Assembly (NCBI GenBank): GCA_029782135.1 | Contig: JAKOVI010000073.1 | Span: forward strand, 1-64,000 | Length of the DNA: 64,000 nt | Source: Bacillota bacterium | Lineage (GTDB): Bacteria; Bacillota; UBA4882; UBA10575 | Direction of reading: 5' to 3' | Shown: positions 17,129 to 34,435 of the stretch, one piece after another | Layout of the letters: each line of letters starts with the position of its first letter | Numbering within the stretch: the first letter of the stretch is position 1 | Notes under the pieces: model-generated | Database searches by the model: none | What the model was told of the DNA's origin: nothing | Seen by the model: the letters and a program-made list of their open reading frames with translations, nothing else | Translations under genes and position numbers: made by a program

Positions 17129-18331
<1,203 letters not shown>

Positions 18332-20755: not shown

Positions 20756-20891
20756 AGGAGCGCATATAAGCGCCTCTCGCCATAGACAGCAGGTATCCTT
20801 GAAAGGATTTAATGATCTTCGCCTGCCGAGGTTGGGAAGAACTTCGTTAATTGACGGAGCCCTCTTGTCTGTTCTATGGGGCTCCTTTTCT
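20756..20891 (+). ncRNA. L10 leader (ribosomal protein attenuator) before rplJ-rplL
   Basis: The 222-nt gap between rplA and rplJ matches the Firmicute L10 leader. CCATAGACAG (20780-20789) can pair with CTGTTCTATGG (20869-20879) to form the closing helix. The conserved GCAGGT and CCTGCCGAGGT segments lie between. A competing terminator follows: GGAGCCC (20856-20862) with GGGCTCC (20879-20885), then a T-rich tail. The two folds overlap at 20869-20879 and are mutually exclusive. Excess L10(L12)4 complex is expected to stabilise the first fold and change read-through. Confidence 0.88.
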
Positions 20892-20919
20892 TTTCTAAAC
20901 TAGAATAGGAGGTGAACAG

Positions 20920-21517: not shown

Positions 21518-21895
21518 ATGCCTAAAGTTAATGAAGTTTTGGAAATCGTAAAGGGAATGTCCGTTCTGGAGTTAAATGAACTGGTCAAAGCTTTTGAGGA
21601 AGAGTTTGGAGTTTCGGCGGCTGCTCCGGTTGCGGTGGCTGCTCCGGTTGCCGGTGCGGCAGCGGCTGCTCCGGTCGAAGAGAAGACTGAATTCGATGTC
21701 ATTCTGGCCAGTGCCGGCGACAAGAAGATCAACGTGATCAAAGTCGTCCGCGAACTGACCGGGCTCGGGCTGAAGGAAGCCAAGGACCTGGTTGACGGCG
21801 CTCCGAAGCCGGTTAAAGAGGGTGTCTCGAAAGAGGTCGCCGAAGATATCAAGGCCAAATTGGAAGAGGCCGGGGCGACGGTCGAAATCAAGTAA
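21518..21895 (+). CDS. rplL: 50S ribosomal protein L7/L12 (bL12)
   Basis: A 125-residue L12. An N-terminal dimerisation domain is followed by an Ala/Pro/Val-rich hinge (about 36-55) and a C-terminal factor-binding domain with [20 protein letters not shown]. It recruits and stimulates EF-Tu, EF-G and other translation GTPases. A strong terminator separates it from rpoB, which therefore depends mainly on its own promoter. Confidence 0.97.
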
Positions 21896-21912
21896 GGATC
21901 AGTTAAAAAAAG

Positions 21913-21947
21913 AGAGAGGCTGCTGCCAAAGCGCCTCTCTTTTTTTC
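21913..21947 (+). terminator. intrinsic terminator after rplL
   Basis: AGAGAGGC (21913-21920) pairs with GCCTCTCT (21933-21940), followed by seven T. Confidence 0.9.
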
Positions 21948-21968
21948 TATAATTTTGGATAATTGGCA

Positions 21969-21997
21969 TTGACAATAAAAAAAAATAATGATATCAT
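21969..21997 (+). promoter_or_regulatory. sigma-A promoter for rpoB-rpoC
   Basis: Consensus TTGACA (21969-21974), a 17-nt spacer and TATCAT (21992-21997) lie just past the rplL terminator. Transcription would begin near 22004, leaving a leader of about 430 nt before rpoB. Confidence 0.78.
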
Positions 21998-22003
21998 TTT
22001 ATA

Positions 22004-22431
22004 TTGCTGACGTGTTCGCTTCTCTACCTCCGCATTATCACCGTTTTATATTGTAGGTGATTTATATATTTCCCAAGCAGTTTTTTTACTTATTCCGTGT
22101 TTATCTTTCAAAAAGCAAGCTCTTTTGGCAGGGGTAGCAAGGGGTTAGCCTTGCTTTTGCCATTTATTGCTCTTTTGTGCCGCGCGGGCCCGTTCATTCA
22201 TCAACATTTCCGTTTATATTTTATAACGGTTGGCGCAAAAAAGCAAACCTTGTTTCGAAAAAATCTGCGGGGCGGTAGGATGCTTCTTATGCGTGGTGCC
22301 ATGCTCATCGTCCACGCAGTTTGTTCTTAAAAAAAGAAATTGTATAGTTCGGAAGGTTTTCGGGACAAGAATTATGCAATTTCTCCAGATAAGTACAGGA
22401 TAGTTTAAAAAAGGGGAAGAGGGGTGAGGAT
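22004..22431 (+). promoter_or_regulatory. long structured 5' leader of rpoB-rpoC
   Basis: About 430 nt with no convincing gene. Three hairpins are visible. AGCAAGG with CCTTGCT is at 22136-22155. TGCGTGG with CCACGCA is at 22290-22318. A 16-bp stem with two G-U pairs is formed by 22335-22350 and 22369-22384. AAAAGCAAG (22111-22119) can instead pair with CTTGCTTTT (22150-22158), which excludes the first hairpin, so a switch is possible. The last stem ends 47 nt before rpoB. I do not recognise a known RNA family. Confidence 0.55.
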
Positions 22432-25400
22432 TTGCCGGACGCAATGAATGCAGAAAAGAGAGGGAGAATCAGTTTTTCCAAGATCGATGAGATCCTGGAG
22501 ATACCAAACCTCATTGAAATTCAACAAAAGTCCTACCAATGGTTTTTGGAGAAGGGACTCCGTGAAGTCTTTGAAGATATCTCTCCAATTACCGACTTTA
22601 CAGGAAACCTTGTCCTCCATTTCGTCGATTACACGTTGGGGGAACCCAAATACGATGTTGACGAATGCAAGGAGAGAGACGCCAATTATGCCGCTCCGCT
22701 TCGCGTTAAAGTAAGGTTGATCAACAAGGAGACCGGCGAGGTTAAGGAGCAGGAAGTCTTCATGGGCGATTTCCCGTTGATGACGGAGAAGGGTACGTTT
22801 ATCATCAACGGTGCGGAACGGGTGATCGTCAGCCAGCTGGTCCGTTCTCCGGGGGTGTATTTCGGCAAGAGCGTCGATTCCAGCGGGATAATTCTCTATA
22901 CGGCCAGTATTATTCCCAACCGCGGGGCCTGGCTGGAGTTGGAATTCGACGCGAATAATGTCCTGTACGTCCGGATCGATCGGACCAGAAAGATCCCGGC
23001 TACCGTTCTGCTGAAGGCGATCGGTCTCGCTAATAACGTGCAGATCCTGGAGCGTTATAACCATCACGAAGCGATCCAGAATACTCTGGAACGCGACAAT
23101 ACACAAAACCCGGAAGAAGCACTGATTGAGATCTACAAGCGTCTGCGGCCGGGTGAACCGCCGACCGTGGAGAGTGCCCGTACCCTCTTTGAGATGCTCT
23201 TCTTTGAACCCCGGCGTTATGATCTGGCGGCCGTCGGCCGTTATAAACTGAATAAAAAACTGAAGCTGGACCTGCCGGTCAAATCCATTCCCGCCCACCG
23301 GGATGAAAACGGGAATGAAGTTCCGGCGGTGGAGGCGGTCCGTACCCTGACCCCGGAAGATATCATGCGGGTTGTCGACTACATGCTTGATCTCTTGGAC
23401 GGGAAAGGGGAGGTCGATGATATCGACCACCTGGGGAACCGCCGCCTGAAAAGGGTCGGCGAACTTTTGCAGAACCAGTTCCGGATCGGCCTTTCCCGTT
23501 TGGAACGGGTGGTCCGGGAGCGGATGACCATCCAGGATCTGGATGTCATTACCCCGCAAGCCCTGATCAACATCCGCCCGGTGGTGGCGGCGATCAAAGA
23601 ATTTTTTGGCTCGAGCCAGCTCTCCCAGTTCATGGACCAGACCAATCCGCTGGCCGAATTGACGCATAAGCGGCGGCTCTCCGCCCTTGGACCGGGCGGG
23701 CTCTCGCGGGAACGGGCAGGCTTTGAAGTCCGCGACGTTCACCATTCCCACTACGGCCGGATATGTCCGATCGAGACACCGGAAGGTCCGAATATCGGTT
23801 TAATCGGCTCGTTGACCACCTATGCCCGGATCAATGAGTATGGGTTTATTGACACCCCATACCGGCGCGTGGTTGACGGGAAGGTCACCGATGAGATCGT
23901 CTACCTGACAGCCGATGAAGAGGACGAGTACATTATTGCCCAGGCGAATGAGATGTTCGACCCGGAGACCAGGTTGTTTGTCAACCAGAAAGTTTCAGCC
24001 CGCTATAAGGACCAAATTCTGATTGTGCCGCGGGAGGATGTCAATTTTATGGACGTCTCCCCGAAACAACTTGTCAGTATTGCGACGGCGCTCATCCCGT
24101 TCCTGGAGCATGATGACGCCAACCGGGCGTTGATGGGCTCCAACATGCAGCGCCAGGCAGTTCCGTTGATTGCGACCGAAGCGCCTCTGGTCGGAACCGG
24201 GATGGAGTATAAGGCGGCGGTCGATTCCGGAGTAGTCGTCCTGGCGAAGAACCCCGGGGTGGTTGAGAGGGTCACGACCGACCAGATAATTATCCGGACG
24301 GATAATGGCAAGGAGGACCGGTACAAACTCCAGAAGTTTAAACGCTCCAACCACGGGACTTGTATCAATCAACGCCCGATCGTCCGTCAAGGGCAGCGGG
24401 TCGAAGCCGGTGAAGTCATTGCCGACGGCCCTTCGACCGACCACGGTGAGCTGGCCCTGGGCAAAAATATCCTGGTCGCTTTCATGCCCTGGGAAGGTTA
24501 TAACTACGAAGATGCGATCCTGATCAGTGAAAAACTACTGATGGAAGATACTTTTACTTCGATCCATATTGAAGAATACGAATGTGAAGCCCGTGACACC
24601 AAGTTGGGTCCGGAGGAGATTACACGGGATATCCCCAATACTGCCGAGGGTTCCCTGGATGATCTGGACGAAAACGGGATTATCCGGATCGGCGCTGAAG
24701 TTCACCCCGGCGATATTCTCGTCGGGAAAGTGACGCCGAAGGGCGAGACCGAACTGACGGCCGAGGAGCGCCTCCTCCGGGCGATCTTCGGGGAAAAGGC
24801 CCGCGAGGTCCGGGATACCTCCCTGAAAGTCCCGCATGGTGAATCCGGGAAAGTGGTTGATGTGAAAGTCTTCAGCCGGGAGAACGATGACGAACTTGCC
24901 CCCGGAGTTAATAAGCTGGTCCGGGTCTATGTCGCCCAAAAACGGAAGATTTCCGAAGGTGACAAGATGGCCGGCCGGCACGGGAACAAAGGTGTCATCG
25001 CTAAAGTCTTGCCGGTGGAAGACATGCCGTTCCTTCCGGACGGCACGCCGGTCGAGATAGTCCTGAATCCGCTGGGTGTGCCCTCCCGGATGAATATCGG
25101 TCAGATTATGGAGACGCACTTGGGGTGGGCGGCCAAAGCATTGGGCTTGAAGGTGGCAACCCCGGTCTTTAACGGCGCGACGGAAGAAGAGATCGTGCAA
25201 TACTTGGAAAAAGCCGGCCTCCCGAAGGACGGGAAAATTATGCTTTACGACGGGCGCAGCGGCGAACCGTTCGATAAACCCGTGACCGTCGGTTATATCT
25301 ATATGCTCAAACTGGCCCATCTAGTAGATGATAAGATCCATGCCCGGTCCACCGGCCCTTATTCGCTGGTGACCCAACAACCGCTGGGCGGGAAAGCCCA

Positions 25401-25971
25401 ATTCGGCGGTCAGCGCTTTGGAGAGATGGAGGTTTGGGCGCTCGAAGCTTACGGGGCGGCCCATACCCTCCAAGAGTTGCTGACGGTCAAGTCCGACGAT
25501 GTGGTCGGGCGGGTGAAGACTTACGAAGCGATTGTGAAGGGCGAGAATATTCCGGAACCCGGCGTCCCCGAGGGCTTCAAGGTCTTAATCAAAGAACTGC
25601 AGAGTCTCTGCCTTGATGTCAAGGTATTGGCGGAAGAAGCCGAGGTCGAACTGAAGGATGACGAAGACGATGTCCAGGAGATGGCGAAAGAGCTTGGTCT
25701 GGAGATCGAACAACCGACCTTTGAGAAAGCTTCAGGCGAGAGTGAAGAGTTCGATGAGGAGGATGAGGAGGCCGGGGAAGAGGACGAAGAGATCGACGGC
25801 GAGGAAGAAATGGATTTTGAGGATGACTTTGACCCCACCGAGTACCTGGAAGAAGGGGAAACCGATGACGATGTTGAGCTCGCCGGGGAGTTTGAAGAAG
25901 AGGTTCCTCCCGAGGACGGGGAAGATGAGTTCCCGACCAGCGATCTGCTGAAGGCCATTAAGGAAAAGTAG
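22432..25971 (+). CDS. rpoB: RNA polymerase beta subunit
   Basis: A 1179-residue beta subunit. It starts with the usual [20 protein letters not shown]-like region. The rifampicin pocket ([23 protein letters not shown]) and the C-terminal clamp segment ([20 protein letters not shown]) are intact. The TTG start has GAGGGGTG upstream; ATG 22444 is an alternative. The last 104 residues (from about 1076) form an extremely acidic, probably disordered tail. rpoC follows after 68 nt. Confidence 0.97.

Positions 25972-33232: not shown

Positions 33233-34435
<1,203 letters not shown>

Follow-up and report, generated by a model that had tools for sequence, protein, structure and literature searches.

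The window, a stretch of 64,000 nucleotides from an uncultured member of the Bacillota whose nearest named relatives are digester-type MAGs (e.g., UBA5486, UBA5388, and UBA4882), carried the gene order nusG-rplK-rplA-[L10 leader]-rplJ-rplL-rpoB-rpoC. The rplL gene ended at 21895, and rpoB started with a TTG codon at 22432. The features found between them are listed in Table 1. A terminator behind rplL, whose hairpin was also found in relatives, separates rplJL from the rpoBC unit. The clear promoter and the more than 400 nt without a gene, which the original prediction had reported from this DNA, were both confirmed, and the gene-free leader measured about 429-430 nt. Furthermore, two near-identical tuf (EF-Tu) genes (17129-18331 and 33233-34435), about 16 kb apart, flanked the rpl-rpo-fus cluster, and the C-terminal extension of RpoB (window 25600-25971) was long, acidic, and E/D-rich. 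Two rpoB-like genes apiece were present in the genomes G286 (contig C384, where the pair was tandem) and G101 (contigs C63 and C18).

Table 1. Features of the rplL-rpoB region in the window.
Feature	Position	Strand	Basis
Terminator hairpin at the rplL end, with T-run (T7)	21905-21946	+	Inverted repeat I5/I6
rpoB sigma-A promoter, TTGACA-17 nt-TATCAT, extended TG	21969-21997	+	11/12 consensus matches
Start-site block A-T-T-G-C	22003-22007	+	Phylum consensus A6 A7 T8 G9 Y10, counted after -10
Family-level hairpin ATCACC..GGTGAT, loop varying by 1-2 nt	22037-22061	+	Fold z -2.4
Hairpin 5' arm GCAGGG (phylum consensus GCGAGG)	22128-22133	+	Relatives' alignment, fold
Hairpin 3' arm CCTTGC, without variation across the phylum set	22149-22154	+	Consensus; R1 match
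Interrupted U-tract TTTTGCCATTTATT, proposed pause/termination zone	22155-22168	+	37-family tail pattern compared with rplL terminators
Family-level block TATTTTATAACGG...AAAAAAGCAAAC	22217-22248	+	A2 alignment; inverted repeat I24
Genus-specific insertion bearing a 16-bp stem	22257-22390	+	Only in the window and a sister species
rpoB ribosome-binding site (GAGGGGTGAGG) and TTG start codon	22419-22434	+	Kept in all relatives

The upstream regions of rpoB were collected through a phylum-wide protein search, with one locus per family (66 families) picked regardless of motif. A matching rpoB promoter was present in 64 of the 66 Bacillota families, nearly always with a spacer of 17. The start-site block AATGY accompanied these promoters, with T8 in 57 and G9 in 61 of the 64 families. 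Moreover, TG at positions 8-9 was found at 39 of 41 rpoB promoters, compared with 4 of 34 other promoter-like sites. The median length of the rpoB leader was about 206 nt (range 49-509, 64 families). Long rpoB leaders are thus normal in the Bacillota, and the length that had been called unusual was so only in that the window lay at the long end of the range, because of the genus-specific insertion.

The whole leader folded better than its shuffles (MFE -127.6, z -3.0), and only 1 of 100 shuffles was as good. Conservation was mapped by aligning the rplL-rpoB gap of relatives (alignment A2). Four blocks were kept in the family, namely the promoter with the first transcribed bases, 22037-22061, 22128-22168, and 22217-22248. 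The ATCACC..GGTGAT hairpin was kept in 11 of 11 aligned leaders (genera g1, g2, g5, and g6) and was not seen in the other families compared. A DNA operator was also considered for this element. Its spacing varied (24-26 nt), and the palindrome occurred at 11 other genome sites with unrelated interiors, so that it more likely acts as an RNA hairpin. The third block, near-invariant in the family, read GCAGGGGTARC-loop-GGTTAGCCTTGCTTTTGCCATTT. The last one had the family consensus TATTTTATAACGG..AAAAARGCAAA, and its AAAAGCAA could form pairs with TTGCTTTT in the tail of the hairpin.

Among the structures of the original prediction, the 16-bp stem near the start codon (22335-22350/22369-22384, z -5.9) was real and confined to the genus. 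The insertion containing it measured about 130 nt (A2 columns 301-445). Base changes between the two species preserved the pairs of the stem, so the stem was probably genuine but local. A middle hairpin in the same insertion (22264-22320) had a fold z of -1.9 and had diverged in the sister species. The two mutually exclusive pairings proposed around 22111-22158 did not hold. Their arm at 22111-22119 (AAAAGCAAG) was absent from the sister species and all other genera, and 22111-22158 folded no better than its shuffles (z -0.8), which argues against a riboswitch or any other alternative-pairing switch. Conservation of pairing across relatives, when checked, was deep for one hairpin, at 22128-22168, which is only partly within the region first described. 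Therefore, the idea of a regulated, structured noncoding rpoB leader was supported through this phylum-wide hairpin rather than through the proposed switch. A leader peptide was considered as well, since several relatives had a GTG frame from 22057 that stayed open over about 20-30 codons (read by eye). However, it terminated at the conserved hairpin in frames that differed between relatives and had an early stop in one of them.

The recurrence of the hairpin was followed from close relatives to the phylum. In relatives it took the form AAGCRAGG-loop-CCTTGCTTTT, in further families of the same class the block was AAGCGAGGATAAC-NNN-GTTACCTTGCTTTT, and outside the class AAGCGAGG-loop-CCTTGCTTTT stood at the matching place before rpoB. 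When no prior motif was supplied, CCTTGCTT was the commonest 8-mer in rpoB leaders (33 of 66 families, at most 11 in shuffles). Likewise, CCTTGCTTTT was present in 27 of the 66 family leaders (at most 5 in shuffles) and AAGCGAGG in 25. Close to half of the families in the sample had no exact copy of the motif, whose carriers included a Syntrophomonas genome (locus L092) and a Halanaerobiales genome (locus L091). With a covariance model (R1), the window matched at 22131-22173 with 29.5 bits and an E value of about 9e-4, the best match in its whole genome. The rpoB leader was also the model's top match in most of the relatives' genomes, and variants were detected in further families (L196, L178, L193, and L175), with no match in six rpoB regions of Actinomycetota.

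The specificity for rpoB was assessed by scanning 300 genomes for the exact pattern GCGAGGN(4-34)CCTTGCTTTT. It gave 93 matches in 91 genomes, and 80 of them were located 45-270 nt upstream of rpoB (78 verified by sequence or coordinates, 2 by near-identity to verified members of the same family). The remaining 13 were at chance level, since a reversed control pattern gave 15 matches in total. The hairpin sequence is therefore no general Nus-factor signal, and its invariance has to be explained by a feature peculiar to rpoB or by descent alone. Outside the hairpin, most of the leader diverged fast among relatives, as would be expected of a long 5' UTR that takes no part in regulation, its likeness between families arising from common descent and base composition. 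Such a reading is highly improbable and already contradicted by the enrichment, because exact words were kept over tens of families and fell to background level elsewhere, and because the tail was distinctive. The phylum-wide rpoB-leader hairpin has probably not been described before, the comparison covering literature other than that of subscription journals.

The anatomy of the element was derived from 37 families, whose consensus consisted of A-A, the 5' arm GC[G/A][A/G]GG, a loop of 5-27 nt that often began with TTT, the 3' arm CCTTGC, and TTTT. The letters of the 3' arm were part of the selection, and those of the flanks only in part, as the AA at -2/-1 (frequencies 0.84 and 0.90) and the tail were free of it. 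In the core helix, 99.4% of the cells were paired, including a conserved G-U pair, and the 5' arm swapped A and G only opposite U, with no double change. No strict covariation was found in the core helix of this set, because the 3' arm never varies. At positions 1 and 4, additional inner pairs were more frequent than in shuffles (P about 0.01 for either position), and the median stability was -13 kcal/mol. Both arms were nearly invariant over dozens of families, with a loop that varied in length and sequence, and the sequence occurred at rpoB only. If the element were purely a terminator, some drift in its stem sequence would be anticipated. This would suit a protein-binding site for RNA polymerase, a Nus factor, or a ribosomal protein that represses or stabilises the rpoBC mRNA, with termination secondary or absent. 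We regard a binding site of this kind as doubtful. The hairpin was always trailed by U4 and a patterned U-rich tail, which binding would not need, and families without the sequence often bore another terminator-like hairpin there, as seen by eye in Brevibacillus (L105), Aneurinibacillus (L128), and Alicyclobacillus (L087).

The tail had a pattern of its own. The frequency of U was 1.00, 1.00, 0.97, and 0.89 at positions 1-4, 0.67 at position 8, and 0.84, 0.76, and 0.70 at positions 10-12. At positions 5-6, U was avoided (0.08 and 0.11 compared with a background of 0.33; z -3.9 and -3.5). Within 8 nt, 5-6 U were present in 31 of the 37 families. In the rplL terminators of the same genomes, U decayed smoothly from 0.65 to 0.29 with neither a dip nor a second peak, so the interrupted tail is a signature of the rpoB hairpin and not a generic terminator profile. 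The selection against U at positions 5-6 weakens release, and G at -10, T at -1, and often G at +1 around the conserved T 8 nt past the stem resemble the elemental pause consensus (PMC12288461). Accordingly, a programmed pause might be imagined, at which a halted polymerase lets the ribosome, a factor, or RNA folding act before rpoB. We consider it unlikely that the element is a pause and not a terminator, as the 8 nt from hairpin to end are terminator-like (7-9 nt), compared with the 10-13 nt of pause hairpins (PMC8060035, PMC12288461).

A stable hairpin with a U-tract in the 5' leader, the mark of a terminator or attenuator, was present. Counting against an attenuator, the U-tract falls short of what a plain intrinsic terminator would have. 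The NusG-dependent terminators of B. subtilis carry U at -12, -11, -8, -7, and -6 from the 3' end, together with two to four weak A-U/G-U pairs at the stem base and a distally interrupted U-tract (PMC8060035). The stem base of the rpoB hairpin was AA/UU with some G-U. When the 3' end was set 8 nt after the stem C, CCTTGCTTTTNNNT had T at all five positions and G at -10, and the 37-family logo agreed with the published sequence pattern in this register, which was picked after seeing the data. The UU of CCUUGC would then be -12/-11, the G -10, and the UUU -8 to -6. This register would account for the retention of UU in the 3' arm and for the freedom of the 5' arm to carry either purine. The NusG motif of a review, -11 TTNTTT -6 (PMC12288461), was fitted by the hairpin consensus at 4 of 5 T only. 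The register assignment is thus offered as a hypothesis. Were it correct, read-through of the attenuator would depend on Nus factors and on polymerase traffic, as has been argued for rpoBC of E. coli (Steward and Linn 1992, as cited in PMC1242208). No conserved antiterminator was found in the rpoB leaders.

On balance, we lean slightly towards the view that the rpoBC leader contains a conserved attenuator, an intrinsic terminator that is weak and depends on Nus factors. In the window and in much of the Bacillota, rpoBC would be transcribed from its own sigma-A promoter through a leader with this weak terminator. As RNA polymerase copies AAGCRAGG-loop-CCUUGCUUUU, the hairpin would fold behind it, and the polymerase would pause over the interrupted U-tract, about 8-11 nt past the last G-C pair. 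A fraction of the polymerases would release there, in the window giving a leader RNA of about 160 nt (22004 to about 22165), and the others would continue into rpoB and rpoC. The fraction released would probably be set by NusA, NusG, and the spacing of successive polymerases, and the output of rpoBC would thereby track the amount or activity of polymerase. From this arrangement we infer termination, factor dependence, and feedback at the rpoB leader. Feedback control of RNA polymerase, which the original prediction had suggested, is plausible from the anatomy. The hairpin is probably an ancient brake, an early stop by which RNA polymerase limits its own production. A bolder and more tentative possibility is that the leader is an ancient dedicated sensor of RNA polymerase, in which the hairpin and tail, with the AATGY block, would be read in cis by polymerase or its Nus factors, and rpoBC would be tuned by polymerase supply or speed with no other regulator.

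The window's own copy departed in part from the phylum pattern. In the genus, a local competition was seen, in which either GCAGGG (22128-22133) or GCAAGG (22137-22142) pairs with CCTTGC. The GCAAGG stem, lengthened by GGCAGGG:TTTTGCC, was the computed minimum (-18.8 kcal/mol, z -3.1). The window tail was offset by one from the phylum pattern, with 4 U among the first 8. Judging from this weaker and offset U-tract, attenuation in the window may be weaker or more factor-dependent than the phylum pattern would give.

Other conserved elements were noticed in rpoB leaders. A second, distinct hairpin, GCGCGG..(GGTCCGCGC or similar) followed by TATTCGTTATGCCCGG, was conserved in six leaders (L078, L166, L167, L205, L213, and L102). 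Five leaders from families without the exact hairpin motif (L156, L160, L162, L203, and L212) had an upstream block resembling GGNAATAATAGNNAGATAA in common. In addition, the block TGTGGGCTGA was kept between the start site and the hairpin in the leaders L046-L053, from one family of the class (f5). Upstream of rpoB in the Bacilli L105, L117, L128, L087, and L090, unrelated terminator-like hairpins with U-tracts were recognised by eye, which suggests that these may serve an equal function with another sequence.

To our knowledge, the control of the amount of core RNA polymerase in bacteria is poorly understood outside E. coli. An rpoB-specific, attenuator-like element that can be traced across the Bacillota by one short sequence provides a concrete, mutable target. 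Its alterable parts are the stem-loop, the UU within CCUUGC, and the break in the U-tract, with read-through into rpoBC as the readout. Furthermore, the hairpin could matter for responses to polymerase inhibitors, because the attenuation of E. coli rpoBC was reported to depend on transcription frequency (Steward and Linn 1992, as cited in PMC1242208).

Searches of the window, the leader, and eight related loci against Rfam gave only the L10 leader and tRNA above threshold, in agreement with the earlier statement that no family is recognised. The L10 leader (RF00557, 47.7 bits) was a separate element upstream of rplJ (20762-20900) and not the identity of the rpoB leader. The Lacto-rpoB RNA (RF01709) is likewise a structured cis-element in a Bacillota rpoB leader, found in Lactobacillales only (Weinberg et al. 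2010, PMC2864571). It had no gathering match in the window, none at E <=10 in 21890-22500, and none in the eight related loci. In E. coli, an attenuator with a terminator-like hairpin reportedly lies between rplL and rpoB (Barry, Squires and Squires 1980; Steward and Linn 1992; as cited in PMC5371410 and PMC1242208). It was proposed to control the level of rpoBC and to respond to transcription frequency. The present hairpin differs in standing behind a separate rpoB promoter, with rplL having its own terminator, and in its conserved, gene-specific stem sequence. The NusG/NusA-dependent terminators of B. subtilis resemble it in the A-U/G-U stem base, the interrupted U-tract, and the T register (PMC8060035). 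However, they are grouped by function and share no stem sequence, and the NusG dependence is here predicted from sequence. The rimP-leader, an attenuator of rimP-nusA-infB, has the conserved terminator stem GGGc..gCCC (Naville and Gautheret 2010, PMC2965389). The rpoB leader does not belong to this family, as it had no Rfam match and differs in its stem (GCRAGG..CCTTGC), its operon, and its interrupted U-tract. Both are short terminator-like elements with an unusually conserved stem and no visible antiterminator before an operon of the transcription machinery, and the rimP-leader is the closest described analogue in form.
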